Translations under genes and position numbers: made by a program
Notes under the pieces: generated by a model
Told to the model about the DNA's origin: nothing
The model's database searches: none
The model's input: only the letters and a program-made list of their open reading frames with translations
Virus record (IMG/VR): IMGVR_UViG_3300025120_012797
Span: 1-49,540 of that record
Direction: 5' to 3' (one strand)
DNA length: 49,540 bases
From: a virus
Shown here: positions 8,057 through 25,141 of the stretch, piece after piece
How the letters are laid out: each line of letters opens with the position of its first letter
Position numbering within the stretch: the first letter of the stretch is position 1

Positions 8057-8239
8057 ATGAACGATAAAGACTTAGAACAGATACAGACAGTAGATGTTAA
8101 CATCACAGCGGAATCAATTGATGCTCACGTGATTTGCCTTAGAGAGAACGGATACAAAATATCTCGACCCTTTTCCTTATACACAAGATACATCCTATCA
8201 TTTTTAGTGGGTGCTACTTTAATGGGGGCAATATTATGA
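8057..8239 (+). CDS. Small single-helix membrane protein
   Basis: A 60-residue protein. The first 40 residues are polar and acidic, and the last 18 (YILSFLVGATLMGAIL) form one membrane helix ending at the C-terminus, as in tail-anchored proteins. It is the first gene after a strong promoter and its stop overlaps the S8 protease start by 4 nt (ATGA). It could help translation or export of the protease, or act as a small anchor; nothing in its sequence shows which. Confidence 0.65.
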   Translation: MNDKDLEQIQTVDVNITAESIDAHVICLRENGYKISRPFSLYTRYILSFLVGATLMGAIL

Positions 8240-11979: not shown

Positions 11980-12323
11980 TGCAAAAAGAAATACACAACG
12001 AGGATTACTTCGGAACCCTGATGTCGATACTGGTTGACGAATCACGTAGGATGATGCCAACATTCAATCCCACCGCGGAAACACACAAGATACAGAACGA
12101 TATGTGCAAGGCAGGAACCTGGTTGACCCAAGTGCCACTGAACACAATAATACAAAGTCCACCACAGGACTCTGTAAAAAAAATTGAGGCACAGTCATTA
12201 CCAGAATACAGAAGACTGGCGGCAACATTGATAGAACATTTCATAAAAGAATTCAAGACACAGGGCGGAGATGATGCTAAAATAAGAGAACACTTTGAAA
12301 GGATGTACAAATGGAAACAATAA
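11979..12323 (+). CDS. Hypothetical soluble protein
   Basis: A 114-residue, mostly helical-looking protein with no recognised motif. Its ATG shares one base with the protease stop (TAATG) and its end overlaps the next gene by 13 nt, so it is part of the same operon. It has no signal peptide or membrane segment. Confidence 0.65.
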   Translation: MQKEIHNEDYFGTLMSILVDESRRMMPTFNPTAETHKIQNDMCKAGTWLTQVPLNTIIQSPPQDSVKKIEAQSLPEYRRLAATLIEHFIKEFKTQGGDDAKIREHFERMYKWKQ

Positions 12324-12505
12324 CAATAACCTGTACAAACAATGACAGGACCAAGGAAGCAGACGTATTGGAGCGAACAGACAAGTACATGAAAGTGCAA
12401 GTACCAGGAACTCAGTTATTCATTGAGCTATTCAGGGATGATGTAAATATACCATACACAGGTAGAACAGCCGGATTGGAATTTGAATGGGAACCGAAAA
12501 ACTAA
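12311..12505 (+). CDS. Small hypothetical protein
   Basis: A 64-residue protein predicted to be mainly beta (METITITCT at the start, LFIELFRDDV in the middle). It overlaps both neighbours (13 and 19 nt), which argues that it is translated. No function can be assigned. Confidence 0.6.
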   Translation: METITITCTNNDRTKEADVLERTDKYMKVQVPGTQLFIELFRDDVNIPYTGRTAGLEFEWEPKN

Positions 12506-12969
12506 AATTTAAACTAGAACTGTATGCAACCATGTGGGACAAGCCTCCCCATGCAGAGATCATGCTCGGCAACAAGAGCTATTTCGCAGGTGATATCACA
12601 GGCACTGAAAACAAACCTGATGTTATCGAGTTCGAACACGAATTGACAGAAGGTGAGAACTACGAGCTGATTATCAACAGATCAGGAAAAGGAAAGAATC
12701 AAACTGTGGTCAACGAGAATGGCGATCTACTCAAGGACCAACTATTGCACATAAAAGACATAGAGATAGACGAGATAAACATAGGAGCATTAGTGTATGA
12801 AGGAGTTTATACCCCAACGTATCCAGAACCATGGGCTACACAGCAACGTGAGTTGGAAAATGAACTGCAAGAATCCTTCAAGAACGTCACACAGATGGGA
12901 TTTAACGGAAGATGGACATTTACATTCTCATCACCGTTTTACATGTGGCTGTTAGAGAATCTTTACTAA
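12487..12969 (+). CDS. Beta-rich phage protein, possible carbohydrate-binding fold
   Basis: A 160-residue protein of alternating strands, with a stretch LLHIKDIEIDEINI that resembles the last strands of carbohydrate-binding-like beta-sandwich domains seen in phage tail-associated proteins. The C-terminal part has many aromatic residues (WTFTFSSPFYMWLL). It overlaps the upstream gene by 19 nt. Its TAA stop abuts the late promoter of the next gene. The binding function is an inference from fold-like features only. Confidence 0.55.
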   Translation: MGTEKLKFKLELYATMWDKPPHAEIMLGNKSYFAGDITGTENKPDVIEFEHELTEGENYELIINRSGKGKNQTVVNENGDLLKDQLLHIKDIEIDEINIGALVYEGVYTPTYPEPWATQQRELENELQESFKNVTQMGFNGRWTFTFSSPFYMWLLENLY

Positions 12970-12975
12970 TAAATA
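12969..12975 (+). promoter_or_regulatory. T4-like late promoter ATAAATA
   Basis: ATAAATA with its last base 7 nt before the ATG at 12983; overlaps the last base of the preceding stop. No Shine-Dalgarno sequence. First promoter of the block of capsid-targeting-like genes. Confidence 0.65.
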
Positions 12976-12982
12976 TGCTTAT

Positions 12983-13339
12983 ATGAGAGCATCACAATTC
13001 ATCATAGAGAACATAGACTCAGACGCAGTAAACGAGCTGGATACGTACATCATGAACAATGAGGAACTGTATCGTAGACGTTTCATGCCAATTATATCGA
13101 ACATCAGAAGAAAAGTAGCCAAGAACGTGTACGACCATGAGAAAGCACAGAAACTTTGGATGTACCTCGTGGATGATGCCGCAAAAGAATACGTAAAAGA
13201 ATTTGGTTCAACACAAGACGATGTTAGCAACATGTTTCCTAAAGAGACAAGAGAGCAGGTTGCGAGAGTGATATCAGACAGAGAATTAGAAAACATAAAG
13301 CAAGGCGAATACGATGCACCTCAGGGAACTGTTTCTTAA
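12983..13339 (+). CDS. Unknown protein with capsid-targeting-like N-terminus
   Basis: A 118-residue helical, highly charged protein. The first nine residues MRASQFIIE resemble the N-terminal capsid-targeting peptide of T4 internal head proteins, which ends in an (I/L)xE site cut by the prohead protease gp21; cutting here would follow Glu9. The rest lacks known motifs. It is preceded by a late-type promoter and overlaps the nucleotidyltransferase-HAD gene by 26 nt. I infer a late protein packed inside the head; its activity is unknown. Confidence 0.65.
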   Translation: MRASQFIIENIDSDAVNELDTYIMNNEELYRRRFMPIISNIRRKVAKNVYDHEKAQKLWMYLVDDAAKEYVKEFGSTQDDVSNMFPKETREQVARVISDRELENIKQGEYDAPQGTVS

Positions 13340-14495
13340 CGAGGACGATCGTTCAACAGCAGTCTTTGCCTTTGGCCGATTCAATCCTCCCACAATAGGA
13401 CACGAGAAACTAATTCAGAAAGTACAGTCAATGGCCAAACAGGTTAATGGCAAGGGATTTGTGTTCCTTTCCCACACCGGTGGCACAGAGAAAGATCCAC
13501 TAGATTTCACAACAAAATTATCATACCTAAGACAGCACTTCCAATCAGACAAGAATCTATCATTCGGTGACATCCGAGCTAACACGATAATCAAAGTCAT
13601 GAAGGTGCTCGAACAAGAAGGCAGGACAAGAGTAATAATGATTGCTGGCGACGATAGAGTCATGCAATTCCAAAAGTTATTGAATCAGTACAATGGACAG
13701 AAGACCAAGGCCGGTAATATAGAATACACATTTGATGAGATACAGGTTGTCAGTGCCGGACAAAGAGATCCAGACGCAGATGACATTACAGGAGTCTCGG
13801 CATCCAAGGCCAGAGAACTTGCCATGAAGGGACAGGAACATGAATTCTCTAAAATGGTAATGGGCGGAGATAAAGGTAAGGTACTTTACGACAGAATCCA
13901 AGATAGATTTGGTAAAGAAGTTGACGAAAACAACAAGAAGTTGTATAATGAGAATATGACAGATACAAAGCCAATTGTATATCTTGATATGGACGGGGTA
14001 CTAGCAGACTTCTTTGGTGGTGTTGAATTCCTTTATGGTGTTGAACACTGGAAGCAACTGACCAACGACAAGACAAAAGATCTCAAGAAAGAAGTCATAG
14101 ACAGAATCACAGGCACAGACTTCTTCGCAGTGTTGCCAAAGTTTTCAACAGCAGATGCACTTATAGACATGGTGAAGAAATTCACAGGTGGAAAATTCAG
14201 CATAAACACATCACCATTGAGAGGTGATCATGAGAATTCAGCAAAATATAAAAAATTATGGATACAGAATAAAATCGAGAAACCAGATGAGATAATTGTT
14301 ACAGGCAGGAAAGAAACTTATGCCAAGGATAAAGCAACAGGCACACCCAACATTCTGATCGACGATAGACCAGTCAACATACAGAAATGGCAGGCGGCCG
14401 GAGGTTACGGAATACTATACCAAGCAAACAGAGATCAATTAAACAAAGTACAGAAAGGACTAGAAGACTATGGCAAAGTTCAGCGGGATCAATAG
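13314..14495 (+). CDS. Nucleotidyltransferase-HAD phosphatase fusion, capsid-targeting-like N-terminus
   Basis: A 393-residue two-domain protein. Residues 1-205 are a cytidylyltransferase/NMN adenylyltransferase-type domain: AFGRFNPPTIGHEKL (TxGH nucleotide-binding motif) and GVSASKAR (the SxSxxR signature). Residues 220-393 are a HAD-fold 5'-nucleotidase-like domain: YLDMDGVLADF (catalytic DxDGV) and ILIDDRP near the end. The N-terminus MHLRELFLNE fits the capsid-targeting pattern with LNE as possible gp21 site. It could make or salvage a nucleotide cofactor such as NAD and dephosphorylate nucleotides, but the substrate is not fixed by the motifs. It is in the late block, overlapping both neighbours. 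Confidence 0.85.
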   Translation: MHLRELFLNEDDRSTAVFAFGRFNPPTIGHEKLIQKVQSMAKQVNGKGFVFLSHTGGTEKDPLDFTTKLSYLRQHFQSDKNLSFGDIRANTIIKVMKVLEQEGRTRVIMIAGDDRVMQFQKLLNQYNGQKTKAGNIEYTFDEIQVVSAGQRDPDADDITGVSASKARELAMKGQEHEFSKMVMGGDKGKVLYDRIQDRFGKEVDENNKKLYNENMTDTKPIVYLDMDGVLADFFGGVEFLYGVEHWKQLTNDKTKDLKKEVIDRITGTDFFAVLPKFSTADALIDMVKKFTGGKFSINTSPLRGDHENSAKYKKLWIQNKIEKPDEIIVTGRKETYAKDKATGTPNILIDDRPVNIQKWQAAGGYGILYQANRDQLNKVQKGLEDYGKVQRDQ

Positions 14496-14649
14496 AGCAT
14501 ACGCTATGGGTGATGTACCCAAGACACCACAAGAGTTACAGAGAGAACTTGACGAGAAGATGAAGAAGTTCTTGGCCAAGGGTGGCAAGGTAGAGAAAGT
14601 CAAAGCACACAAACCTACGAAACAACAACAGAAGGACTGGACTATCTAG
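14470..14649 (+). CDS. Small basic protein
   Basis: A 59-residue Lys-rich protein starting at ATG 14470 within the end of the HAD fusion gene and ending at the TAG whose final G is the first base of the next gene's GTG. Residues 18-45 are helical and highly charged (LQRELDEKMKKFLAKGG). The double overlap supports real translation. No known domain. Confidence 0.6.
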   Translation: MAKFSGINRAYAMGDVPKTPQELQRELDEKMKKFLAKGGKVEKVKAHKPTKQQQKDWTI

Positions 14650-14864
14650 TGGACGAACTAGAGAGGATAAAGAAGTTAGCAGGATTGTATGACAATCCTC
14701 ATCGGACAGAAGATTCAATGGGCGAGAATCTATCCTACGTGGGAACACAAAAATCACAATATCAGAGAAAACACAACATCAAACCGGGCACAGACGAGTG
14801 GTTCAAACTATGGTTCGCACAACCTAGACTCACTGGTGAAAACCCAATGCCTCGCAAAAAGTAA
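14649..14864 (+). CDS. Small conserved-type phage protein, GTG start
   Basis: A 71-residue protein starting with GTG at the last base of the preceding stop. It has an N-terminal helix ELERIKKLAG, a motif also common near the N-termini of phage prohead and internal proteins, then a polar, aromatic-rich C-terminal half (GTDEWFKLWFAQ) and a basic tail. A longer ORF in another frame covers the same bases but belongs to the next gene's upstream extension and is not favoured. Confidence 0.6.
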   Translation: MDELERIKKLAGLYDNPHRTEDSMGENLSYVGTQKSQYQRKHNIKPGTDEWFKLWFAQPRLTGENPMPRKK

Positions 14865-14865
14865 A

Positions 14866-15543
14866 ATGGCTTTCCCTAAATCATACTATGATGAGTATAC
14901 CTCGTCATATTGTACGAAGATAGGTCAAGACATGAGGGGTATTTTAAAATATAATTTTAACAATCAAGGATTCATTAATAATCTAGACTATGATGTAAAC
15001 GAAAAAGATGCTATTTGTTTTTTTGGTTCAGCAATAACATCCTCTATAGGTCTCCCATGGGAATTATCTTTTGCTCACAAACTCAGTCAAGAACTAACTT
15101 CTAAAGAATTTAAAGCATATAACTTTGCCCAAGGTTGCATGTTCGTTGACAACCAAGAAATAATCAACACTGTGGAATCTGTAAAAAACATGGAGCAATT
15201 TAAACCTGCTGTGTATGTTGTTCAGTTCATTGGACTAGATAGGCGATTCTCTCCACAGAAGAAAGCCGGGAAATTGAATACAGATGCTGATGAAAATTTA
15301 AAGTCTTTTATCGAACTTTTCAAAAAATTAGAACATATGTTGAAAGATGAAAAATGGATTTTTTTCGCGTGTGACGAACCGGATCACAACATGCCTAATG
15401 AAATAAAACAACATCAAAATTGTTTAATATGGAATCCTCCCTTTATAAGTACCTTGTTGAGAGATCTTCCTGGAGAAAAATTTCATAAGATGATAAGTCT
15501 AGGATTAAAAAATAAATTAAAAAAGCTCTATAACATAGAATAG
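14866..15543 (+). CDS. SGNH-like protein, degenerate
   Basis: A 225-residue protein; I place the start at ATG 14866, one base after the preceding stop, because sequence upstream in this frame is only a shadow of the previous gene. ICFFGSAITSSIGLPWE has the position and shape of SGNH block I (strand, G-x-S/A, then a turn), and the architecture is like the next gene's product. A clear catalytic Asp/His block at the C-terminus is not evident, so it may be an inactive or divergent member. The local sequence is more AT-rich than the flanking late genes. Confidence 0.5.
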   Translation: MAFPKSYYDEYTSSYCTKIGQDMRGILKYNFNNQGFINNLDYDVNEKDAICFFGSAITSSIGLPWELSFAHKLSQELTSKEFKAYNFAQGCMFVDNQEIINTVESVKNMEQFKPAVYVVQFIGLDRRFSPQKKAGKLNTDADENLKSFIELFKKLEHMLKDEKWIFFACDEPDHNMPNEIKQHQNCLIWNPPFISTLLRDLPGEKFHKMISLGLKNKLKKLYNIE

Positions 15544-15546
15544 ATT

Positions 15547-16089
15547 GTGTTTAATAATTGTAATAAAAAAATGCTTTCCCTAGCAGGTTCCTCCGTTGAC
15601 AGATACGGCCTAGACCAGACCGGAAAAGTAGTTTATAAGTTTGACTCTTACGGCTTTAGAGAGGGAAATCAGTACAGTAACAAACCCTCTGTGATTTTCT
15701 TTGGTTGCAGTTACCTGGCCGGTATAGGGGTCACAGTCAATGAAAGATTCTCAAATTATTTCAATAGTTGGAATTTTGGTTTGTATGGCTCATACACCGA
15801 AGAAGAATTATTAATAAATTACGACTTACTAAAAGAAAATTATAAAGACCATGCTCAATGCAAGATTGTTTTTTGTTGGAAATCAACTGACCTCAAACAA
15901 TTAAAAAAACTGATTATGTCCATCGAAAATGATAAAAATATATATCATACTGTTCCTGTTGATTTAAAGTTAGAAGATTATAAGTTGATGAGGATTGTAG
16001 AAAGCATAGATCATGACGTCAGTGGAACACACTATGGGCCTGAATCTCATTTGAAATTAAGCAAATTGTTATGGCATTTCCTAAAATAA
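15547..16089 (+). CDS. SGNH/GDSL-like hydrolase candidate
   Basis: A 180-residue protein. Block I is FFGCSYLAGIGV (Ser as nucleophile), preceded by the FDSYGFREG strand often seen in this phage/bacterial subfamily, and the end carries GTHYGPESHLKLSKLL, matching the (D/T)xxH-x-G/S catalytic His block. The start is GTG at 15547; ATG at 15571 is an alternative that removes eight residues. It forms a tandem pair with 14866 and its last 19 nt overlap the next gene. An esterase or deacetylase acting on a polysaccharide or glycolipid is possible but not shown. Confidence 0.6.
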   Translation: MFNNCNKKMLSLAGSSVDRYGLDQTGKVVYKFDSYGFREGNQYSNKPSVIFFGCSYLAGIGVTVNERFSNYFNSWNFGLYGSYTEEELLINYDLLKENYKDHAQCKIVFCWKSTDLKQLKKLIMSIENDKNIYHTVPVDLKLEDYKLMRIVESIDHDVSGTHYGPESHLKLSKLLWHFLK

Positions 16090-16715
16090 TTATATTAGCA
16101 CAGGGCGGCACCCATGGAGATTTTCTCTATCAATCTTGCCAGATAATCACATCCGATGTAGATGTTAACAAAATCGACAATAACGGTAGAGTGATAGAAT
16201 CATCTATCTTTAAAAGGAAAAATCTTACTATATTTGGAGATGGACAAAAGATGGACACAATGTTAAATCATCTGGACGATGCCCAGCCCGTAGAAGTGTG
16301 TCATGTATGGTATGAGGAATTCATAAATTGGCCCAGTAAATTCTATTATATAGATTATGATGACTCCCTACTAGAGATTATAAAAAAGATGTATTTCGAA
16401 AAAGTTCACAACAATGATAAAAACCTAGCCATGGTATGGTATAAAAAACATCTGCCCGACAGTGTTGCGAGAAAAATCAATCATGATAATCTCGACGAAG
16501 TGATCAATTCATCATACAGGAACGCACAAAAAAAATATAAAAAACAACCGAACGCCAAGGCAGTCAACATAATTGATTTGTATTCGGTAGATAAGTTGAT
16601 AGGCATCATGAAGGACATGGAGATTTACCATGAGAAAAATCTCTCATCTTTGAAAACGTTCCACAGTGAATGGCTCGAAAGAAATGATAAGTGGATAAAA
16701 CAAATAAAAAAATAA
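16071..16715 (+). CDS. Unknown protein, possible sulfotransferase-like fold
   Basis: A 214-residue protein with an N-terminal strand and loop KIIILAQGGTHGDFLYQSC. The position and shape recall the substrate/PAPS loop of sulfotransferase-like proteins, and a similar N-terminus (YVPGTFGNCLRWLF) occurs in the protein at 42268. The C-terminal part has FHSEWLERND. No firm catalytic assignment can be made. It overlaps the SGNH-like gene by 19 nt, so these three genes may act on the same molecule. Confidence 0.45.
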   Translation: MAFPKIIILAQGGTHGDFLYQSCQIITSDVDVNKIDNNGRVIESSIFKRKNLTIFGDGQKMDTMLNHLDDAQPVEVCHVWYEEFINWPSKFYYIDYDDSLLEIIKKMYFEKVHNNDKNLAMVWYKKHLPDSVARKINHDNLDEVINSSYRNAQKKYKKQPNAKAVNIIDLYSVDKLIGIMKDMEIYHEKNLSSLKTFHSEWLERNDKWIKQIKK

Positions 16716-16728
16716 GCCAATAAAACAA

Positions 16729-16735
16729 ATAAATA
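16729..16735 (+). promoter_or_regulatory. T4-like late promoter ATAAATA
   Basis: ATAAATA ending 7 nt before the ATG at 16743 of the superoxide dismutase gene; no Shine-Dalgarno sequence in the gap (CTCGCAT). Confidence 0.65.
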
Positions 16736-16742
16736 CTCGCAT

Positions 16743-17297
16743 ATGCGAGCCATGGAATTCACAGAAACAAGTTGTCCTAGGACCAAAGCCAAGGAATGTA
16801 GTTGTAGCAAGGTAAACAGTATTACCGAAGCACAGGAAACAACTGTGGCACAGTGCATATTGGAGCATTCTGACACCGTTAAGGGGTCAATCCTGCTTAT
16901 ACAGGCGCCAGGAACAGCAACACTAGTCAAAGGCACCATCACTGGACTTACCCCGGGAGAACACGGTTTCCATATACACGAGTTTGGTGACATGTCAGAT
17001 GGTTGTAAATCAATGGGCGGACACTACAACCCAGATGGAGTTGATCACGGTGACATCAGCGAAGGACACGTGGGAGATCTTGGTAATATTACAGCAAACG
17101 ATTCAGGCACTGCCAGTTTCACAATAGAAGCAAAGAGAGTAGACTTGCTAGGTGATAGGTCAGTGATCGGCAGAGGATTCGTTGTACACTCAGACAAAGA
17201 TGATCTAGGCAAGGGTGGAGACGCAGAGAGTTTGAAAACGGGCAACGCAGGTGATAGGTTAGCCTGTGGTGTGATAACAATGAGGGCGGCGGAATGA
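16743..17297 (+). CDS. sodC: Cu/Zn superoxide dismutase without signal peptide
   Basis: Converts superoxide to hydrogen peroxide and oxygen. Copper ligands HGFHIHEFGD (His77, His79), the bridging His in GGHYNP, zinc ligands in HGD and HVGDLGN, the fourth copper His in FVVHSDKDDLG, and the disulfide cysteines (DGC and LAC) are all present, so it should be active. Bacterial SodC is normally secreted, but here there is no signal peptide. Instead the protein begins MRAMEFTE, resembling the capsid-targeting tags of its neighbours, followed by a Cys-rich segment (CPRTKAKECSC). A late promoter precedes it and it overlaps an FMN reductase gene by 4 nt. I infer a virion-packaged or late cytosolic enzyme. 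Confidence 0.93.
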   Translation: MRAMEFTETSCPRTKAKECSCSKVNSITEAQETTVAQCILEHSDTVKGSILLIQAPGTATLVKGTITGLTPGEHGFHIHEFGDMSDGCKSMGGHYNPDGVDHGDISEGHVGDLGNITANDSGTASFTIEAKRVDLLGDRSVIGRGFVVHSDKDDLGKGGDAESLKTGNAGDRLACGVITMRAAE

Positions 17298-17896
17298 AGT
17301 TCGTAATCTACAACGGAACATTGAAGGCAGACGCAGAGTCAAACACCAGCAAAGTTGTACAGATGTTAAAACTGGCATTTGAAAAACTAGGGAACGAATG
17401 CGAAGTTGTAACGATGGCTGAACTCAACTACCAAAGAGGCACCGTGGACATTGATGATGACCTAAAACCAGAATTAATGAAAATGTTCAAAGCAGACGGT
17501 GTCGTGTTTGCCACACCTATATGGTGGAGTGGACAGAGTTCACACATACAGGCAATAATGGAAAGGATGGATCCAATATACAACTGGGCAAAAGAAAACA
17601 AGCATCAACCTTTCTATAATAAAGTATTTGGCAGTCTTATATCCGGTGGCGGAGATGGATTCCAAAAGATACACGGCAACCTTTATAGTTTTGCTTCAAA
17701 CTTTGGATTCACGATAGTGCCACAGGCAAACGTTGAATCGAAAGCACAAGGCGTGGACGAGATAACACAGGACGACGACACAGTGGATCAAGTAAAGAAC
17801 TGTGCTATCAACATGACAGCATGGGCGAGAGTATTAAAAGAAGGCAATCCAGCAAAAGACGGCAGGCACGGATCAGTAGACGTCAATGAAGATTAA
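17294..17896 (+). CDS. Flavodoxin-fold NAD(P)H-dependent FMN reductase family protein
   Basis: A 200-residue protein with the flavodoxin-like fold: N-terminal strand KFVIYNGTL and Ser/Asn phosphate loop (AESNTSK), then the typical FATPIWWSGQSSHIQAIMERMD segment that contacts the flavin, and SLISGGGDGFQ. This fits the NADPH-dependent FMN reductase/quinone reductase family. It overlaps the sodC stop by 4 nt (ATGA), so the two redox enzymes are coupled. It may supply reduced flavin or detoxify quinones. It lacks the N-terminal tag present in its neighbours. Confidence 0.85.
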   Translation: MKFVIYNGTLKADAESNTSKVVQMLKLAFEKLGNECEVVTMAELNYQRGTVDIDDDLKPELMKMFKADGVVFATPIWWSGQSSHIQAIMERMDPIYNWAKENKHQPFYNKVFGSLISGGGDGFQKIHGNLYSFASNFGFTIVPQANVESKAQGVDEITQDDDTVDQVKNCAINMTAWARVLKEGNPAKDGRHGSVDVNED

Positions 17897-18113
17897 AGAA
17901 ATACTGGCGACAAAATACGTACACCCAGACGTAAACAAGATCTTAAAAAAATACGAAAAGCAGGCCAAGGGAAGATCAAGGATGGGATACCATTCAATGA
18001 TGGCATATCCATACAGGGTGGAAGGCTGGAGCAACAAATACAAGAAGTCCATAAACTGTAGCAACCCAAAAGGATTCTCACAGAAGGCCCACTGTGCAGG
18101 GAAGAAAAAATGA
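17886..18113 (+). CDS. Small Lys/Cys-rich basic protein, capsid-targeting-like start
   Basis: A 75-residue strongly basic protein. It begins MKIKEILA, a variant of the tag seen in neighbouring late genes. The C-terminal module CSNPKGFSQKAHCAGKKK pairs two cysteines about ten residues apart among Lys residues; related C...C/Lys modules end the products of 18110, 23419, 24245 and 24430. This suggests a nucleic-acid-binding internal head protein. It overlaps both neighbours (11 and 4 nt). Confidence 0.7.
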   Translation: MKIKEILATKYVHPDVNKILKKYEKQAKGRSRMGYHSMMAYPYRVEGWSNKYKKSINCSNPKGFSQKAHCAGKKK

Positions 18114-18763
18114 AGATAAAAGAATTCATAATAATGCCACACACGGCGGACACGATGGGTCTCATACACAAACCCGGAACAGGTCCAAACAATAGGTTTG
18201 GCTTCAAGAACGTGGGCAACAACAAGGCAAACGAAGATGAACATAGTCCAGATCTAAAATTACCTACTGGCAAAAAAATGGTATTGCAGGCAGAGGATAA
18301 TGAACACACACGAGGTCTCGTAATAACAAGCAACGAAGACGGAAGTTATGATTCATATTATTGGTATAATAACCCTAAAGAGGCAATGCCAATAGAAGTC
18401 AAAATAGATGGTGAATCTGTTTCAAAAGATGCAAAGAATGTTCGTTGGGAATATCATCCTGAACTGGAAGAAGAAGCCGCAGGGGTTGGCATAGTAACAA
18501 AACAGAATGCGACAAAAGACGTGCCTGTGGGCGGCGAGTACATGAACGTGAAAAAATTGAAGTTGGACTGGAAAGAGTTCAACGAGAACTTCGCGGATGG
18601 TAAAAAGAAAGGCAAGAGCAGACCAGGCAGAGTAAAGAAGTCGGGTGCCAGTTGTAACGGATCTGTCACAGCACTGCGTAAGAGAGCAAAAAACAGCAGT
18701 GGTGAGAAGGCCAAAATGTATCACTGGTGTGCCAACATGAAGAGCGGACGTAAAAAGAAATAA
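18110..18763 (+). CDS. Late protein with Lys/Cys-rich C-terminal module
   Basis: A 217-residue protein beginning MKIKEFII, similar to the capsid-targeting pattern but without a clear Glu at the expected cleavage position. The middle is a soluble mixed alpha/beta region. The last 55 residues are very basic and contain GASCNGSVTALRKRAK and MYHWCANMKSGRKKK, the same type of two-cysteine basic module as in its neighbours. It is coupled to the preceding gene by an ATGA overlap. A DNA-associated head protein is the best guess. Confidence 0.65.
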   Translation: MKIKEFIIMPHTADTMGLIHKPGTGPNNRFGFKNVGNNKANEDEHSPDLKLPTGKKMVLQAEDNEHTRGLVITSNEDGSYDSYYWYNNPKEAMPIEVKIDGESVSKDAKNVRWEYHPELEEEAAGVGIVTKQNATKDVPVGGEYMNVKKLKLDWKEFNENFADGKKKGKSRPGRVKKSGASCNGSVTALRKRAKNSSGEKAKMYHWCANMKSGRKKK

Positions 18764-18769
18764 TAATTA
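18763..18769 (+). promoter_or_regulatory. Degenerate late promoter ATAATTA
   Basis: ATAATTA (one mismatch to ATAAATA) ends 7 nt before the ATG at 18777, the same spacing as clear late promoters; overlaps the previous stop codon. Confidence 0.4.
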
Positions 18770-18776
18770 CTTCTGT

Positions 18777-19544
18777 ATGAAGTACAATCTCATAATAGGC
18801 TATCAAGTATTCGAAAGAAATAAAGATTTGCCCGTGATATCAGTCTTTTTGGACGGATCTTTGTTAGATCAATTTAACTGTGATAACGAACAATCGACCG
18901 AAGTTTCCATACGTGAAGAATTCAATGTAGAAGATAACTATCCTTGTTACAAACGAGGCTGTAGTTCTACTAGAGTTTACAAGTATTCCTCGCCAGCAAA
19001 ATATAAAATGATAGAAGTAGACTCATCGACCTGGACTGATCAAACCAAACTTACAATAGAAGTGTCTAGCAACAAATCCAACTACAACAACGGATTCATG
19101 ACTAAAAGAAGTATGGTCTGTATTAGTCCTGTGTTCCTCATGAGCAAGGACATAGACTCTAACCAATCCATTTTACGAAGTATAATTAAAAGATCACAAA
19201 GAGCTAAAATTGGAAAAGAGTCAACAATAATAGATAATGCACTTACTTGGCCTGGGATTTCACAGCATCCAGACCGGGAGGATCAGAGATACATGGGGCA
19301 AGGTGGAAATTTTAAAATGCACTTTGACATCAGAAAGAAACACAAAACACACCTACTAGTGAAGGATGGCACAATCCCTAAAGGTTACTTTGTGCTTGAT
19401 AGATTCGCCACGGCATGGCTACAGCACCATTACAAGAAGTACTTTGATTTTGTGACGAATGTAGTCAATACAAGCACCAACAATGATCCATTGGCAGTGA
19501 AACATGATTGCAAAGTAGAGTTAAGGGAAAAATCAAAGGAATAA
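18777..19544 (+). CDS. Unknown protein
   Basis: A 255-residue protein, N-terminal half beta-rich with several Cys (YPCYKRGCSS), C-terminal half with basic and aromatic residues (FKMHFDIRKKHKTHLLV). No domain recognised, no signal peptide. Its TAA stop is inside the late promoter of the next gene. It may be a virion component given its surroundings. Confidence 0.65.
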   Translation: MKYNLIIGYQVFERNKDLPVISVFLDGSLLDQFNCDNEQSTEVSIREEFNVEDNYPCYKRGCSSTRVYKYSSPAKYKMIEVDSSTWTDQTKLTIEVSSNKSNYNNGFMTKRSMVCISPVFLMSKDIDSNQSILRSIIKRSQRAKIGKESTIIDNALTWPGISQHPDREDQRYMGQGGNFKMHFDIRKKHKTHLLVKDGTIPKGYFVLDRFATAWLQHHYKKYFDFVTNVVNTSTNNDPLAVKHDCKVELREKSKE

Positions 19545-19547
19545 ATA
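19541..19547 (+). promoter_or_regulatory. T4-like late promoter ATAAATA
   Basis: ATAAATA ending 6 nt before the ATG at 19554; the preceding TAA stop (19542-19544) lies inside it. No Shine-Dalgarno sequence. Confidence 0.65.
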
Positions 19548-19553
19548 TCTACA

Positions 19554-19823
19554 ATGAAGATCAACGAAGTAATCATAAAAAGAGTGCAAGAGCAGGCAAC
19601 TGCCGGTGCCACAAGTGCGGGTAATATAGCATCAGTTACATCACCACACATAGCAATTGGCAAGGACCGATTCAAGAAATCATACACAGGATCTCCTGGT
19701 AGATCGGGTACAAAAGCACCCAACGTGCCAAAACCCAAGAAACAGAAACCCACAGACAACGCACTGGACATGAAGGGCACTAGCCTGTTTGGTGGACCAG
19801 CAGTGTCTAGAAACATGTACTAA
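19554..19823 (+). CDS. Small basic late protein, capsid-targeting-like start
   Basis: An 89-residue basic, Pro/Gly/Lys-rich protein that is probably disordered after its N-terminal helix MKINEVIIKRVQEQ. The tag pattern matches neighbours; the possible cleavage Glu would be in RVQE. The C-terminal half has KAPNVPKPKKQKP. It overlaps the zinc-ribbon-like gene start by one base (TAATG). Confidence 0.6.
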   Translation: MKINEVIIKRVQEQATAGATSAGNIASVTSPHIAIGKDRFKKSYTGSPGRSGTKAPNVPKPKKQKPTDNALDMKGTSLFGGPAVSRNMY

Positions 19824-19990
19824 TGGAACCTTTAGTCCTAACAGATCCTATCAAATGTAAGAACTGTGGATTTGATAGTCATTGTGGCAAAGTATCCAAA
19901 AGAACAGAGATAGGATACGCATCAGAAGGTTCAAAAACACACGAAATTGAAGTTTGTAAGCAGTGTAGGTGTGAGGCCTGCGAAGCATAA
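19823..19990 (+). CDS. Small zinc-ribbon-like protein
   Basis: A 55-residue protein with cysteines at 12, 15, 21, 45, 48, 50 and 53, forming CKNCG near the start and CKQCRCEAC near the end. Two CxxC pairs separated by a short beta region is the usual layout of a zinc ribbon. Its start overlaps the previous stop and its own TAA is inside the next late promoter (19987-19993). A nucleic acid or protein contact role is possible; nothing more specific is visible. Confidence 0.65.
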   Translation: MEPLVLTDPIKCKNCGFDSHCGKVSKRTEIGYASEGSKTHEIEVCKQCRCEACEA

Positions 19991-19993
19991 ATA
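19987..19993 (+). promoter_or_regulatory. T4-like late promoter ATAAATA
   Basis: ATAAATA ending 5 nt before the ATG at 19999; the preceding TAA stop (19988-19990) is embedded. No Shine-Dalgarno sequence. Confidence 0.65.
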
Positions 19994-19998
19994 TTGGT

Positions 19999-20322
19999 AT
20001 GAAAGCAAATGAATTCATAAGAGAAGGTGCAGATTTCATGGGATACATGAAAGAGAAAGACCCGGATGGTGGTGTCAGATGGACATACCCGGATGGTTTT
20101 GAAACACAAACTCCACACAGAAGCAACTTCGCCGCAAGAGAATTTTTAAGCAAGGTAGGAATGGATCCAGACTTCGAGAACTCGGGTCCAATAGACATCA
20201 ACACATTCATAGGCAAATTGAGCCAGTTTGGTCACAACGACAAAGAGATCAAGATGTACCACGACGAAGCAGTAAGAATTAAAAAAACACATCCAGAATT
20301 AACACACGTAGCCTTTATATAA
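19999..20322 (+). CDS. Late protein with capsid-targeting-like N-terminus
   Basis: A 107-residue protein starting MKANEFIRE, the best match in the window to a T4-type capsid-targeting peptide with a gp21-like IRE cleavage site after Glu9. The rest is a polar alpha/beta sequence with no recognised motif. A late promoter precedes it, and the next tagged gene starts one base after its stop. Confidence 0.7.
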   Translation: MKANEFIREGADFMGYMKEKDPDGGVRWTYPDGFETQTPHRSNFAAREFLSKVGMDPDFENSGPIDINTFIGKLSQFGHNDKEIKMYHDEAVRIKKTHPELTHVAFI

Positions 20323-20323
20323 C

Positions 20324-21871
20324 ATGAAGTTCAACGAATTATCAGACATGATGCAGAAGCCGGAACCAAAGCCGGACACATACGAAGCGGGCATGGCACT
20401 GAACCAATTGTTAAAAATTGGCACACACGCAATCAAGATACACAACATGATAGACGATGGTGCAGAGATGGAATCTTGGGTGGCCAAGAAGATTGATCTA
20501 GCATCAAACTATGTGAAGAGCGTACACGGTTACACGGCAGGTTCCAAGGTAGGCACTTACGATGACGACGGCATGTCAGAGATGAAACGAATGCCCAAAG
20601 GCACAGGCACCATGCAAGGTGTAAAAGAAAACCCACTTATGGCATTAGGTGTAGCGGCGGCCAGTGGTGCCGGAAATGCAATAGGAAATAGAATTGCAGA
20701 CAAATTAGGTGCTGGCAAGAAAGCCAACACAAACATGATTAAGAAGGAAGACACTCCGGCCACGGATAAAGAGATCAAGATGGCCAAGGGCATAGCGTTC
20801 GACAAGAGGAACAAGGACAACATGTCCAAGGCAACCAGCACCATAGAGAAAGTCAGGAAAGGTCTGTCACAACAGCCAGACGTTGCTGACGCACTTAGGA
20901 CAGCCAACGAGGACGCTGGCGAGGGACACATGAGCAAATCACAGTTGTACGCAACTGCAAAGATGGCAATTGAACTACTGGACATGATTAACAAAGGTGA
21001 CGACCTAGAGGGTTGGGTGCAGACTAAACTTAATTTAGCGGCAGACTACCTACAGGCAGTGTACCACTACGAGGACTACCAGAAGTTAAATCCATACAGA
21101 GAAGAGCTGGACGGTGCGTTGGTGCAGAGACACGCAGGAATCATACAAAAGCATTTAGACGAAATATTGGAGAGAAAATGCAGGGCAGAAGATGTTGACA
21201 CTAAACCTGGCATGATGAGAATTCTTAAGAAGAGAGTGAACGAAGTTGAGAAAGAGATGGCAAAAGAGAACAGAAAAAGCACAGACGAAGGTGACGGACG
21301 CAAGAAAGGTATCCATGGTAAAGGACATCCTATGCGTCAGAAACAACAAGCGGCCATACACGCCAATGAAGAATCATATATAAAACCTTACATTTCAATG
21401 TACAAAGGCAAGGATGGCAAGCAAGTTTATGACGTGTTGGACAAACACGAGAAGTCAGCATACAAAACATCAGACGAGAGATTGGCACAGCACTTCTTTA
21501 AGAAGAACTATGATAAGTTGAGAGAGGCAGAACTCGACGAAGGCATAAAAGAATGGGGTAAAAGGCTAGCAATGGCGGGAGTTATTGTGGCAGGACTGGC
21601 CGGAGCCAACTCAATTAACAATGCAATAGACAATTCAATACCGGCTGTCAAAGCCATGAACACAGCATTGGAACTGGCACAAGATTCGGGCAACACAGAA
21701 CTGGCAAAAATGATAGAAAAAGATCTGTCAGATGCCAAGGTTAGACTGAGTTCTGGCAAGGATCTATCGCATGTAGCGGACATGCAGGACAAATACGCCA
21801 AGTTCATGAAGACAGAGGGCATGGCATACGAGTCAAAACTAGCAGTAAACCTAAAACAACGCCTTAAATAA
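20324..21871 (+). CDS. 515-residue late protein with duplicated helical module
   Basis: The protein begins MKFNELSDMM, a looser version of the neighbouring tags. A helical module occurs twice: about residues 26-75 (MESWVAKKIDLASNYVKSV) and about 206-255 (LEGWVQTKLNLAADYLQAV). This WV-x-K-(I/L)-x-L-A-x-(D/N)-Y module is known from structural proteins of marine T4-like phages. Gly/Ala-rich hydrophobic segments lie near 110-125 and 412-430. Basic linkers (GRKKGIHGKGHPM) separate the parts. It probably belongs to the prohead core or inner head; it is too long for a simple internal protein and could be cut at several sites by a prohead protease. Confidence 0.65.
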   Translation: MKFNELSDMMQKPEPKPDTYEAGMALNQLLKIGTHAIKIHNMIDDGAEMESWVAKKIDLASNYVKSVHGYTAGSKVGTYDDDGMSEMKRMPKGTGTMQGVKENPLMALGVAAASGAGNAIGNRIADKLGAGKKANTNMIKKEDTPATDKEIKMAKGIAFDKRNKDNMSKATSTIEKVRKGLSQQPDVADALRTANEDAGEGHMSKSQLYATAKMAIELLDMINKGDDLEGWVQTKLNLAADYLQAVYHYEDYQKLNPYREELDGALVQRHAGIIQKHLDEILERKCRAEDVDTKPGMMRILKKRVNEVEKEMAKENRKSTDEGDGRKKGIHGKGHPMRQKQQAAIHANEESYIKPYISMYKGKDGKQVYDVLDKHEKSAYKTSDERLAQHFFKKNYDKLREAELDEGIKEWGKRLAMAGVIVAGLAGANSINNAIDNSIPAVKAMNTALELAQDSGNTELAKMIEKDLSDAKVRLSSGKDLSHVADMQDKYAKFMKTEGMAYESKLAVNLKQRLK

Positions 21872-21883
21872 ACATATAACAAA

Positions 21884-21891
21884 TATAAATA
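21884..21891 (+). promoter_or_regulatory. T4-like late promoter TATAAATA (full match)
   Basis: Exact T4 late consensus TATAAATA, ending 6 nt before the ATG at 21898. The gap (CTTCAT) has no Shine-Dalgarno sequence. This is the strongest single match in the window. Confidence 0.75.
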
Positions 21892-21897
21892 CTTCAT

Positions 21898-22746
21898 ATG
21901 AGCACAGCCGACAACAGTTTCGCAAACCTAGTAAGACGTTTAAACGCGATGAGCAACATTACTCCAGAGCAGGAAAGACAGTCCATGATGGAAGCAGTTG
22001 GCAAAGCACCAAAAGTGTTAGATGACAAAGAAGTTTCATTGGCTGACATAGCCAAATTGGCAGGAATCAAAGAATATGTGGAACCTGCAAAGCACTCAAA
22101 GAAAGCAAAAGCACTCGTTGAGTCTATCACAGCAGAACCAAAATCGGAATCAAGTATTGCTAAAGCAATAAAAGAATCAGACGCAGATGACTCTATAGCG
22201 ACTTCAATCAAGAAAGAAGTTAATGAGGAAGTAAATAGATTAGACAAGATAGCAGAATTGGAAGCACAGTTGGCAGAACTGAAGACGGAACAAAAAGAAG
22301 AACAAACGTATGACTCAAAATCATTTAGAGAAGTTATCACAAAAGATATCGCAGAGTACATCAAAGATGCAGAAGATTCTGCTCTCGTGGAACTGTACAA
22401 CACAATCTCAGACAATGAAGCAGTTTACAACGAGGAATCATCAAACATTCTCATCAAGACTCCAGAGACTACTGAGATCATAGCAGACGCTGAACAGGCC
22501 GAAGCACCAGAAGAAAAAGTTGACGAGAAAGTAAAAGACTTTGTAGACTACGACAGGAACAAAGAAGAACCACACACACCAGAAAAAGACGGTGAGGAAG
22601 AAGCAGAAGACAAATCCGACGAACTAGACACGGATGGTGAAGTAGACATGTTAGACCCAGAGTTTGACGAAGGTGAAGAAGTAGAAATAGAAGCATCTGC
22701 AGAAGACAAGTTCACAAACGATCTAGATCCAGCAGACAAAAAATAA
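21898..22746 (+). CDS. Acidic late protein, head-assembly-like
   Basis: A 282-residue, very Glu/Lys-rich protein with long coiled-coil-like helices (IAELEAQLAELK) and a strongly acidic C-terminal third (DGEEEAEDKSDELDTDGEVD). The segment SLADIAKLAGIKEYV is like short helices in prohead scaffold proteins of T4-like phages. Acidic, helical, late-expressed proteins are typical of scaffolds and prohead core. No enzymatic motif. Preceded by the best late promoter in the window. Confidence 0.6.
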   Translation: MSTADNSFANLVRRLNAMSNITPEQERQSMMEAVGKAPKVLDDKEVSLADIAKLAGIKEYVEPAKHSKKAKALVESITAEPKSESSIAKAIKESDADDSIATSIKKEVNEEVNRLDKIAELEAQLAELKTEQKEEQTYDSKSFREVITKDIAEYIKDAEDSALVELYNTISDNEAVYNEESSNILIKTPETTEIIADAEQAEAPEEKVDEKVKDFVDYDRNKEEPHTPEKDGEEEAEDKSDELDTDGEVDMLDPEFDEGEEVEIEASAEDKFTNDLDPADKK

Positions 22747-22755
22747 TCTAAAAAA

Positions 22756-22762
22756 TTAAATA
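22756..22762 (+). promoter_or_regulatory. Late promoter variant TTAAATA
   Basis: TTAAATA ending 5 nt before the ATG at 22768, in a 21-nt gap between genes; no Shine-Dalgarno sequence. Confidence 0.5.
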
Positions 22763-22767
22763 AGTGT

Positions 22768-23409
22768 ATGCAGTTACACTTGACCGACAACAAGTTCAAC
22801 ACCAATCCTTATTGGAGTGAGCGTATAAAAAGCATATTCGCATGTCCGCCCAAAGACGTTGTAGAAATGTTTGACCAGAACGGTTACGATCTCACCAAGT
22901 TGGAACAACTATATGCTGTGGCCAACGATGCAATTACCACACGACACAGGAATTCAGAACACATCACACTACGTCAACCATGGTTCACTGCAGATGACAC
23001 GGAATACGGTCCACACATCAACCATGCCTACATGTTTGAACGCAAGGGATATTCAGGTGACGCATTGGTACAACTTGAAACATGGGCCGACTACAGGCCA
23101 CACTTCCATAAACTGACTGCCATGAGGCCCAAGTGGGGACTGGATTTCTCAATAGACTACTGTGACCGTGAGGGCAACGTGTTTGAACTGCTTCATTGGG
23201 AGTATGACGGGTTCGACTACAACGAAGTGGCCGACAAGAAAGAGATCATGGATGAGTTCCTACAGAACCAGGACTGGGATGAACGGGCACAGACCATGCT
23301 GGAACGCAAGTCAGAATGGCATGAATTGGGCTTTTTTGAGCAGAGTGCATGGAAAACTAAATTCTTTGGCATAGACAAAGAACGTTTCAAGATGGTGATA
23401 TGGAAATAA
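22768..23409 (+). CDS. Conserved-type phage protein, unknown
   Basis: A 213-residue protein rich in Trp, Phe, His and Asp, without signal peptide. No catalytic motif identified. Surroundings and promoter type suggest a late virion-related gene. Its TAA stop is embedded in the next late promoter. Confidence 0.65.
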   Translation: MQLHLTDNKFNTNPYWSERIKSIFACPPKDVVEMFDQNGYDLTKLEQLYAVANDAITTRHRNSEHITLRQPWFTADDTEYGPHINHAYMFERKGYSGDALVQLETWADYRPHFHKLTAMRPKWGLDFSIDYCDREGNVFELLHWEYDGFDYNEVADKKEIMDEFLQNQDWDERAQTMLERKSEWHELGFFEQSAWKTKFFGIDKERFKMVIWK

Positions 23410-23412
23410 ATA
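23406..23412 (+). promoter_or_regulatory. T4-like late promoter ATAAATA
   Basis: ATAAATA ending 6 nt before the ATG at 23419; the preceding TAA stop (23407-23409) is inside the motif. No Shine-Dalgarno sequence. Confidence 0.65.
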
Positions 23413-23418
23413 CTGTAC

Positions 23419-24243
23419 ATGAGCTCAATACCTTACAACTACGGATCATACATAGACGCCAAAGTGGCAATGACTGACACAGGGCACGTGCCCGCGGGCA
23501 AACAGATCCAGTCACCGGCAAGTGCGGGTAGCAGGGGACTGGCAAAAACCATGACTTTTTCAAAAGACAAGACACAGATGCAGTTGGGACAAGAGGCCAT
23601 AGCAGAATCAATGGTGGAGATCAGAAGCATCATAAACAGGATTGACGGTGTGAACGCACCAGTGCAGGAAGCACCAAAAGAGAATGAAGAAACAGTTTCA
23701 GAAGACGAGCCTGGTTTATATAAAAACCCTGATAAAGAATTTAACATTAATGGAATGACAACTAAAAAAGATGTTGTGCAATCTATTATAGATAATTTAG
23801 ATAACAATGAATTAGATACTGCTAAAGACAGTTTAAATCAATTACTTGATGTAGTAACTGCACTACACGACGACTATCAACCAATGCCAGAGGGTGATGA
23901 GTTTGACATAGCAGAGGACGAGGACTTCGAGGAAGTGCTTGGTTCACTAGGTTTCCCAGAAGACGAAACAGATTTATTTGACGCAGAGTACCAAGGCAGG
24001 AAAGTTCCACTTAACAAACCCATGCGTGGTGACACTAAAAAATTCAAAGTGTACGTTAAGGATCCAAAGACAGGCAATGTTAAAAAAGTAAACTTTGGAC
24101 ATGGCGGTACGAGTGCAAAAAGAAAAACAATGAGAATTAGGAAATCTAATCCAAAAGCAAGAAAATCATTTAGAGCACGTCACAACTGTGCAAACCCAGG
24201 ACCAAAGACCAAAGCAAGATATTGGTCATGTAGGAAGTGGTAA
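23419..24243 (+). CDS. Mosaic late protein with basic Cys-containing C-terminal domain
   Basis: A 274-residue protein of three parts. An N-terminal third with little structure is followed by a helical segment at about 95-155 (VVQSIIDNLDNNELDTAK), then an acidic linker and a C-terminal domain from about 190 (KKFKVYVKDPKTGNVKKV) ending in KSFRARHNCANPGPKTKARYWSCRKW-type basic residues with two cysteines. The C-terminal domain recurs in structural proteins of marine T4-like phages. The central segment (about 23710-23870) uses markedly more A/T-ending codons than its flanks, suggesting it was recombined in. The two-Cys basic end is like those of 17886 and 24245. Function unknown; a head or DNA-packaging association is inferred. 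Confidence 0.65.
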   Translation: MSSIPYNYGSYIDAKVAMTDTGHVPAGKQIQSPASAGSRGLAKTMTFSKDKTQMQLGQEAIAESMVEIRSIINRIDGVNAPVQEAPKENEETVSEDEPGLYKNPDKEFNINGMTTKKDVVQSIIDNLDNNELDTAKDSLNQLLDVVTALHDDYQPMPEGDEFDIAEDEDFEEVLGSLGFPEDETDLFDAEYQGRKVPLNKPMRGDTKKFKVYVKDPKTGNVKKVNFGHGGTSAKRKTMRIRKSNPKARKSFRARHNCANPGPKTKARYWSCRKW

Positions 24244-24244
24244 C

Positions 24245-24430
24245 ATGAAGATCACTGAAGTCACAGGAATCACAGAACAAGAATTCGAACAACTAGCAGA
24301 GAAACAAGACGCCTGCTATCACAAAGTAAAATCAAGATACAAAGTATGGCCATCGGCCTACGCCAGTGGTGCATTAGTGCAGTGTCGTAAAAAAGGTGCG
24401 GCCAACTGGGGCAACAGCAAGAAGAAATAA
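24245..24430 (+). CDS. Small Lys/Cys-rich basic protein, capsid-targeting-like start
   Basis: A 61-residue protein. I place the start at ATG 24245, one base after the previous stop; an upstream in-frame ATG lies inside the previous gene. It begins MKITEVTGITE, similar to the neighbouring tags with a possible cut after ITE. The rest is a basic domain, CYHKVKSRYKVWPSAYASG then ALVQCRKKG, with two cysteines and a WGNSKKK tail. This module occurs in phage and giant virus proteins and looks nucleic-acid-binding. Overlaps the next start (TAATG). Confidence 0.7.
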   Translation: MKITEVTGITEQEFEQLAEKQDACYHKVKSRYKVWPSAYASGALVQCRKKGAANWGNSKKK

Positions 24431-24828
24431 TGAGAGCCAGCGAGATAATCACAGAGAAGTGTTGGAAGGGCTACACCAAGAAGGGCATGAAGACCATGTT
24501 CGGCAAACGTGTACCCAACTGCGTTAAAAAAGAACATGTTGACTTCTGCGTTAACTGTCACGGTCTTGTACTACACGAATCACTAAACGAAGACTTAAAG
24601 AAGTGGTTTAAAGACAAATGGGTACGAATGGGTCCAGGTGGTAAAATCAGAGGAGCATGTGGTGGCAAGAGCAAGGGTGAAGGTAAACCTAAATGCTTAC
24701 CGGCCAAGAAGGCACACGCACTGGGTAAAAAAGGCAGAGCAAGTGCGGCATCAAGGAAAAGAAGAAAAGATCCAAATCCGGACAGACGTGGTAAAGCAAT
24801 AAACGTCAACACCAAAAAGAAAAAATAA
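24430..24828 (+). CDS. Basic Cys-rich late protein, capsid-targeting-like start
   Basis: A 132-residue very basic protein beginning MRASEIITE, an excellent match to the capsid-targeting pattern with cleavage expected after ITE. Two Cys/Lys modules follow: residues 11-45 (CWKGYTKKGMKTMFG through PNC and a CVNC pair) and 55-132 (KWVRMGPGGKIRGACGGKSKGEG then KCLPAKKAHALGKK and a Lys/Arg tail). The second module resembles a domain of unknown function shared by phages and large DNA viruses. I infer a DNA-binding internal head protein. Confidence 0.7.
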   Translation: MRASEIITEKCWKGYTKKGMKTMFGKRVPNCVKKEHVDFCVNCHGLVLHESLNEDLKKWFKDKWVRMGPGGKIRGACGGKSKGEGKPKCLPAKKAHALGKKGRASAASRKRRKDPNPDRRGKAINVNTKKKK

Positions 24829-24829
24829 T

Positions 24830-24858
24830 TTGCATTCCTTACAATTCTGTTATATACT
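24830..24858 (+). promoter_or_regulatory. Sigma70-like promoter upstream of dsbA-like gene
   Basis: TTGCAT (24830-24835), 17 nt spacer, TATACT (24853-24858); an alternative -10 is TATATA two bases upstream with a TG extension. Unlike most others here it leaves a leader of about 20 nt with a clear AGGAG Shine-Dalgarno sequence (24873-24877) before the ATG at 24884. Confidence 0.65.
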
Positions 24859-24883
24859 TGTTGGATAACAACAGGAGAAACAA

Positions 24884-25141
24884 ATGGCAGTAAGAAACTT
24901 TAATGATGCTGAAAAGCAGAAATTGATTCAAATCATTTCCCAAGGCTCACAGGTACTAGGTGAAGTAGAGGACTTGAAAGGTGGATTGAAGGACACAGTA
25001 AAAGCAATCTCAGAAGAACTAGAATTGAAACCAGCACTTATCAACAAGGCGATATCCGTTGCACACAAAGGCAACTACCAGAACATCGCTGACGAGATGG
25101 ACACGCTGGAAAGCATACTAAACACAGCCGGCAAACTTTAA
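24884..25141 (+). CDS. DsbA-like double-stranded DNA-binding protein (late transcription)
   Basis: An 85-residue helical protein: FNDAEKQKLIQII, LKGGLKDTVKAISEELELKPALINKAI and HKGNYQNIADEMDTLE. Size and pattern match the DsbA-like proteins of marine T4-like phages; T4 DsbA binds late promoters and stimulates late transcription. Its position directly before DNA polymerase and its strong Shine-Dalgarno leader suggest it is made before late genes switch on. That fits the many late-promoter motifs in this window. Identification is by motif recall, not alignment. Confidence 0.7.
   Translation: MAVRNFNDAEKQKLIQIISQGSQVLGEVEDLKGGLKDTVKAISEELELKPALINKAISVAHKGNYQNIADEMDTLESILNTAGKL

Follow-up and report, generated by a model that had tools for sequence, protein, structure and literature searches.

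Here, we analyze a 49,540-base fragment of a marine relative of phage T4 from IMG/VR (IMGVR_UViG_3300025120_012797; "the window" denotes this whole stretch, and its genes are named by their start positions), in which ten genes between positions 12983 and 24828 encode proteins that begin with a similar short tag. We consider it probable (roughly 0.83) that this tag is a nine-residue version of the capsid-targeting sequence (CTS) of phage T4, and that the tagged proteins are loaded into the head, where a gp21-type protease cuts the tag. Such targeting had been proposed in a sequence-only reading of the block, and it is now supported by virion-reported, tagged homologs of gene 13314, by the virion proteome of Synechococcus phage S-CREM2 (five of five tagged proteins), by a peak of Glu within the tags, by the junction in gene 19554, and by a tag at the position of T4 gene 67 in two relatives, G001 and G002. 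The testable features of a CTS are present, but the virion data come from homologs and the cut sites are incomplete; hence we file these tags as a short variant of the T4 CTS.

No head genes were found in the window, which is a fragment. By DNA polymerase, the window is nearest to jumbo T4-like phages (Sinorhizobium phage Phosso, 50%; Agrobacterium phage Atu_ph07, 46%), followed by RaK2-like phages. INPHARED yielded no close phage DNA relative for window positions 12000-25000. Close relatives are present in IMG/VR, including G001 (196,581 bases), which is colinear with the window and encodes a gp21-type protease and a gp23-type capsid protein, the pair expected alongside a CTS; G006 has this pair as well. 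The tagged block is conserved in relatives.

Enrichment of the tag at gene starts

All ten products singled out in the sequence-only reading do start where it placed them; for 24245, this is an internal ATG of an open reading frame (ORF) whose listed start is a GTG at 24188. Six of the ten (12983, 17886, 18110, 19554, 19999 and 24430) conform to the literal pattern, M[KRH]xx[EQ][FILV][IL], and the other four deviate at residue 7. This pattern occurs at 6 of 71 window starts, versus 0 of 410 internal methionines and a mean of 0.06 in shuffled proteins. A strict form, M[KRH]xxE[FILV], is found at 8 of the 71 starts, where internal methionines or shuffles predict 0.3-0.5 (maximum 3 in 2000 shuffles), and at 10 of 209 starts in G001, where 0.4-0.7 are expected. 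Eight of these G001 genes lie inside the orthologous block. The ninth (65940-66182, MKLMEFFTYG) is flanked by the portal gene on one side and the gp68/gp21 genes on the other, which is the position of the T4 prohead core gene 67, and a small tagged protein of G002 (96794-97036, MKLFEFFTYG) likewise occupies the gp67 position of its head cluster; the tenth match is probably due to chance. Across 144 related loci and nine records, a combined tag pattern marks 7.7% of 2617 starts, as opposed to 0.05% of internal methionines; the former rate is inflated because the loci were fetched around block genes. The consensus has nine residues: basic at 2, hydrophobic at 3, acidic at 5, hydrophobic at 6 and 7, and Glu at 9. 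A pattern this short and degenerate might resemble the T4 CTS through low-complexity coincidence, the proteins being ordinary late cytoplasmic enzymes. The enrichment of about 15-fold or more, the clustering in a block, and the virion detection of tagged homologs make this extremely unlikely.

The block was also said to lie under late-type promoters, and TAAATA is indeed found at most 40 nucleotides (nt) upstream of 13 window genes (0.5 expected), including 12983, 16743, 19554 and 19999. In 8 of the 13 cases, and in 20 of 36 cases in G001 (L160-L169), 5-7 nt separate the end of the motif from the start codon; the corresponding distance in T4 and S-CREM2 is mostly 18-28 nt. Judging from sequence, late mRNAs of the window/G001 clade may be leaderless. 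Roughly one in two genes of the interval is untagged (14470, 14689, 15547, 16071, 17294, 18777, 19823, 21898, 22768 and 23419). Tags at gene starts beside promoters, and similar codons in some neighbors (MKIKE of 17886 and 18110), could alternatively reflect recent duplication, or a translation-initiation or regulatory signal in the DNA, with no protein tag involved. We regard this as very unlikely. The bodies behind the common tag are unrelated, as had been claimed; they comprise Cu/Zn superoxide dismutase (SodC), a fusion of nicotinamide mononucleotide (NMN) adenylyltransferase and 5'-nucleotidase, and several families lacking assignment. In addition, one and the same domain family bears the long T4-type tag or the short tag depending on the phage. 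Finally, identical tags (MRASEIITE) vary in synonymous codons, which indicates selection on the protein, and on this ground a DNA-level regulatory signal was rejected.

The predicted cut site

The suggested prohead protease site at the tag end is seen, as a sequence motif, in part of the tags. Hydrophobic-x-Glu closes seven of the ten window tags; no site is present in 17886, 18110 or 20324. In a set of 143 distinct tags chosen by their first seven residues alone, and hence regardless of cut position, 50 have Glu at residue 9 and 6 have it at residue 10, against a background of 6.7%. The junction in window gene 19554 reads MKINEVIIKRVQE/QATAGATSAGNIASV (slashes mark predicted cuts), and the G001 capsid protein has KKYLSE/QATAGATSAGNVATLN at the position of the T4 gp23 cleavage site (SFLTE/A); junctions of this type are likewise present in gp23 of Phosso and CBB. 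In the 19554 family, all 49 distinct junctions have Glu at P1, and all 49 have I, L, V or M at P3, while the stretch preceding the cut is variable in length, mostly 8 to 14 residues. Some tags of this family end directly at the site, as in MRIHEIIRE/QATAGATSSGNIATV. Because these tags end exactly at a copy of the capsid maturation junction, the tag end is tied to the prohead protease independently of proteomics.

It is also conceivable that the tag is a docking helix for the prohead core or shell, often not a protease substrate, with Glu simply part of the helix. The three tags lacking a site fit this idea, as does work on T4. There, a stretch of ten N-terminal residues of IPIII is enough for loading into the head; within the CTS, targeting involves residues 4 and 7 and processing residues 8 and 10, and Asp at position 10 blocks cutting but leaves targeting intact, making the two functions separable (PMC9026906). 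Still, the Glu peak is sharp at one position, and the pairing of Glu with a hydrophobic P3 persists in 49 of 49 junctions despite variation in tag length, exactly at the capsid junction. We therefore deem a helix that serves docking only unlikely, and favor a targeting tag that is removed by the protease.

Virion proteomes of relatives

A CTS is N-terminal and about ten residues long, with a basic residue 2 and hydrophobic residues spaced i, i+3, i+4, and the window tags have these features in a form one residue shorter. A pattern built on the residue positions of the T4 CTS recovers three genes in T4 itself, IPII and IPIII among them. For S-CREM2, a gene-by-gene virion proteome has been published (PMC10665884, Table 3). 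In this phage the pattern picks five genes, encoding a SAM hydrolase (MKDFDSFLEE), a small protein (MKDLHSFLTE), a kinase (MKRFDAFLTE), gp136 (MQTFSMFFSE) and a cytidylyltransferase (MKNFSSFLTE). All five products are in the virion, versus 46 of 172 for untagged genes (Fisher p = 0.0017). Cytidylyltransferases have been reported in virions of S-SM1 (PMC3037559) and S-SCSM1 (PMC9602691), and in a prospective check these were found to begin MKKFSAFLNE/A and MKSFLQFLKE/A, respectively. In S-SM1, S-SCSM1 and S-CREM2 alike, the NAD-synthesis enzyme homologous to 13314 is thus virion-detected and carries a perfect T4-type tag of ten residues, and the tag of window gene 13314 sits at the same place. 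Phosso and Atu_ph07 encode untagged homologs; in S-CBWM1, the cytidylyltransferase has no usable N-terminus and a gp23-type capsid protein was not found. When the whole window is compared with S-CREM2, the block proteins 13314 (gp154, 1e-16), 24245 (gp160, 70% identity over 53 residues) and 24430 (gp160, 60% over 30) match virion-detected proteins only, and non-block matches are not in the virion. The S-CREM2 paper (PMC10665884) does not mention a targeting tag, nor does the accessible part of the S-SCSM1 paper (PMC9602691).

Several points weigh against a targeting role. Three of the ten window tags have no cut site, and the short tag falls one residue under any CTS with experimental proof. 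Evidence from virions comes through homologs in other phages only, and virion detections may include contaminants, according to the authors of the S-CREM2 study (PMC10665884). The pattern used for S-CREM2 was fixed after part of that virion list was already known, so the prospective result is confined to S-SM1 and S-SCSM1. CBB, the virions of which have been analyzed, lacks a tag block (4 matches versus 1.0 expected); as its tags are not clear, we count it as neither support nor refutation. Lastly, SodC and the neighboring FMN reductase could act in the infected cell.

Tag-like sequences are also seen at the C-termini of two virion proteins, S-SCSM1_93 (MK867354, 91626-91835; KKRTFKEFLEYIE) and S-CREM2 gp12 (OR473000, 7704-10313; KTFRDFLN). 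These are possibly C-terminal targeting signals.

A model for head loading

We propose that the tagged proteins would be made late in infection from TAAATA promoters, and that the tag would bind a gp22-type scaffold core during prohead formation. Cleavage after (I/L/V)xE by a gp21-type protease would follow, presumably leaving SodC, the NMN adenylyltransferase-nucleotidase, small basic Cys-rich proteins and others in the packaged head. More speculatively, and by analogy with T4, this cargo might pass into the next host together with the DNA. Like the CTS of IPI-IPIII and Alt (Mullaney and Black; PMC9026906), the window tag is a short N-terminal combination of K/R, a hydrophobic pair and, in seven of the ten, xE, borne by unrelated late proteins, and goes with head genes of the gp20-gp21-gp22-gp23 type (on the window side, in relatives). 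It differs in having nine rather than ten residues and in its acidic position 5. Cargo differs too: in T4 it consists of small restriction inhibitors, whereas in the window it includes SodC and the NMN adenylyltransferase-nucleotidase. The virion-associated non-structural proteins of S-CREM2, S-SCSM1 and S-SM1 resemble those of the window in their homologous cytidylyltransferase, their Cys/basic modules and their tag logic, but bear tags of the ten-residue T4 form. A functional analogy, with no claim of sequence relation, can be drawn to DarA/Hdf of P1, which are packaged in the head, bound to the inner shell, and exit with the DNA, DarA being cut by the prohead protease (PMC12810830). Read as an address label, the tag predicts virion-borne auxiliary genes of uncultured marine phages, including those for superoxide dismutase and an NAD-synthesis enzyme, whose products may be active at once on infection. 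It could also explain why cytidylyltransferase has repeatedly been detected in cyanophage virions, a finding so far unexplained.

A copy of the capsid N-terminus

Gene 19554 (89 amino acids (aa), 19554..19823, plus strand) opens with the tag MKINEVIIKRVQE/, continues with a copy of the N-terminus of the mature major capsid protein, QATAGATSAGNIA, and ends in a basic tail. The copied arm is that of its own, jumbo lineage (z = 10.6 versus shuffles; score 62 with the G001 arm and 21 with the T4 arm). In T4, the corresponding N-fist comprises 25 residues that contact four subunits; it lies inside the prohead, moves outward on expansion, and is disordered in the five portal-facing subunits (PMC9958956, PMC7136217). 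Comparing each phage's own mature capsid arm with its own proteome, using shuffles as the control, we find that a single small protein outscores every shuffle in each of G001, CBB (CBB_293), S-CREM2 (gp160), S-SM1 (SSM1_197), S-SCSM1 (SSCSM1_97) and T4 (gp61.1). CBB_293 is the weakest case (47, versus a shuffle maximum of 42), and no such mimic was found in G006, Melnitz or C48C1, six-frame ORFs included. Of these proteins, S-CREM2 gp160 has been detected in virions, and that of S-SCSM1 is annotated as a virion protein. T4 gp61.1 has a CTS-like start, MKTFKEFIKE, followed by VAGDSGGNPENISIGTTSGAVVNKGP, and its first match in a search of the whole PDB is T4 gp23 58-94, gapless across the cut (E = 0.0067). 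The gp61.1 proteins of seven other Straboviridae are longer, with a C-terminal arm and a basic tail. Between three lineages, the arm matches form a block-diagonal pattern; T4 gp61.1, for example, scores 69 against the T4 arm and no higher than 21 against any other. Within Straboviridae, no own-arm preference is seen (own 73.4, other 73.5; p = 0.51, five phages), and co-divergence is therefore visible between deep lineages only.

S-CREM2 gp160 is a fusion of three modules that reside on separate tagged genes in the window, namely the capsid arm (19554), CWKGY (24430) and WPSAYASG (24245). Mimic genes adjoin the primase/helicase genes in T4, CBB, S-SM1 and S-SCSM1, and lie two genes from primase in S-CREM2. 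Gene 19554 shares with T4 gp61.1 and the gp61.1-like proteins on the primase side the copy of the mature gp23 N-fist and the ensuing basic tail, as well as, in T4, the CTS-like start; it differs in carrying the jumbo-lineage arm and in being located in the cargo block rather than beside primase. Since gene position differs, we do not claim orthology. We found no published discussion of the capsid-arm mimic. The T4-type gp61.1 gene is labeled a capsid-domain protein in some records, and the accessible part of one paper gives gp61.1 merely as a conserved hypothetical protein. The mimic is little noticed, and is the most novel part of this analysis.

What might the copied arm do? The cut 19554 protein would expose a new N-terminus that copies mature gp23 (gp23*), and because of this copy it would probably dock on the shell lattice at the N-fist pocket, its basic tail toward the DNA. 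Tentatively, and at slightly less than even odds, we suggest that a small head protein common to the T4 superfamily (T4 gp61.1, CBB_293, S-SCSM1_97, S-CREM2 gp160, and window 19554 with its relatives) copies the N-fist of the phage's own capsid protein in order to plug empty N-fist pockets, for example around the pentons or portal, and tethers basic, DNA-binding or cargo modules to the inside of the shell. With the transferable, cleavable tag, this would make a two-part system furnishing the head with enzymes such as SodC. Alternatively, the copy could be an extended protease recognition site or an assembly regulator (a decoy arm) rather than a shell anchor, an explanation compatible with the targeting role of the tag. 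Its place directly after the predicted cut in 19554 and T4 gp61.1 speaks for this. Yet the S-SM1 and S-SCSM1 proteins have the arm at their own N-terminus with no preceding site, and the latter is annotated as a virion protein; the arm therefore seems functional without cleavage, and we find a recognition site or decoy possible but doubtful. The shell-anchor proposal provides a testable role for T4 gp61.1, so far without an assigned function in the best-studied large phage, and the arm is a possible handle for anchoring cargo at the inner capsid wall.

Genes of the block

All genes described here are on the plus strand. Tagged gene 12983 (118 aa, 12983..13339), the first of the block, is preceded by TAAATA and encodes a conserved protein of unassigned function with the tag MRASQFIIE/N; orthologs in relatives begin MRASQFISE, MRASQFIKE and MRASEFLNE. 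Gene 13314 (393 aa, 13314..14495) has the tag MHLRELFLNE/D followed, according to a domain search and homology to S-CREM2 gp154, by an NMN adenylyltransferase-like (cytidylyltransferase) domain and an NT5C 5'-nucleotidase domain.

Gene 16743 (184 aa, 16743..17297) encodes the tag MRAMEFTE/T, a Cys/basic linker, a second site, ITE/A, and then SodC (Pfam Sod_Cu, 4e-44). Both protease-like sites are conserved in 12 relatives: the tags of SodC homologs end in EFTE/, DLIRE/ or DLIAE/, placing the first site after FTE, LIRE or LIAE, and the second, (I/L/M)TE/(A/G/S), directly precedes the enzyme domain. The Sec signal peptide expected of a bacterial periplasmic SodC was not seen in the window protein; its start, MRAMEFTETSCPRTKAKECSCSK, has no hydrophobic stretch, and a signal peptide was rejected as the explanation of this N-terminus. 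Were this SodC carried in the virion, it would be in line with what has been reported for chlorella viruses. The overlapping gene 17294 (17294..17896) encodes an untagged NADPH-dependent FMN reductase-like protein (Pfam FMN_red, 1e-13).

Genes 17886 (75 aa, 17886..18113; MKIKEILA) and 18110 (217 aa, 18110..18763; MKIKEFII) have tags with no cut site and basic C-termini, CSNPKGFSQKAHCAGKKK (also Cys-containing) and SCNGSVTALRKRAKNSSGEKAKMYHWCANMKSGRKKK, respectively. Gene 19999 (107 aa, 19999..20322) begins MKANEFIRE/G, and its family conserves (F/V)(I/L)xE/GA though the tags vary. The weak tag of gene 20324 (515 aa, 20324..21871), MKFNEL, has no cut site; the G001 ortholog begins MKIKEFHEP. 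The two genes similar to S-CREM2 gp160 are 24245 (61 aa, 24245..24430), with the tag MKITEVTGITE/Q, a KSRYKVWPSAYASGALVQCRKKG module and a weak DUF5872 match, and 24430 (132 aa, 24430..24828), with the tag MRASEIITE/K, a CWKGYTKKGMKTMFGKRVPNCVKK module and a basic tail.

Gene 23419 (23419..24243; phrog_7595, 4e-14) is untagged in the window and ends in a EYQGRKVPLNKP...RHNCANPGPKTKARYWSCRKW module, which is tagged in G001 (MKINEIV) and in phage C48C1 (MKKFKQYIDE/G). In C48C1, a Kyanoviridae phage, neighboring genes (L232 856-4158; record 68091-68408) have the T4-type tags MMLDFKNFITE, MLSFKQFVSE, MITFKKYLEE and MKKFKQYIDE and form a second cargo-like cluster.

Elsewhere in the window, a lipoprotein-like protein of 1247 aa with a subtilase domain (Peptidase_S8, 3e-24) is encoded at 8236-11979, just upstream of the tagged block, and is also present in G001. 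A set resembling 7-deazaguanine DNA modification was recognized by eye, comprising TGT-like (29664-31112, with no Pfam match), FolE-like (38201-38914), YhhQ-like transporter (41091-41693) and QueE-like (43324-44223) proteins. Three further proteins are radical-SAM-like, one with a match to phrog_14086 (31121-32311) and two assigned by eye (34902-36047 and 47066-48196).

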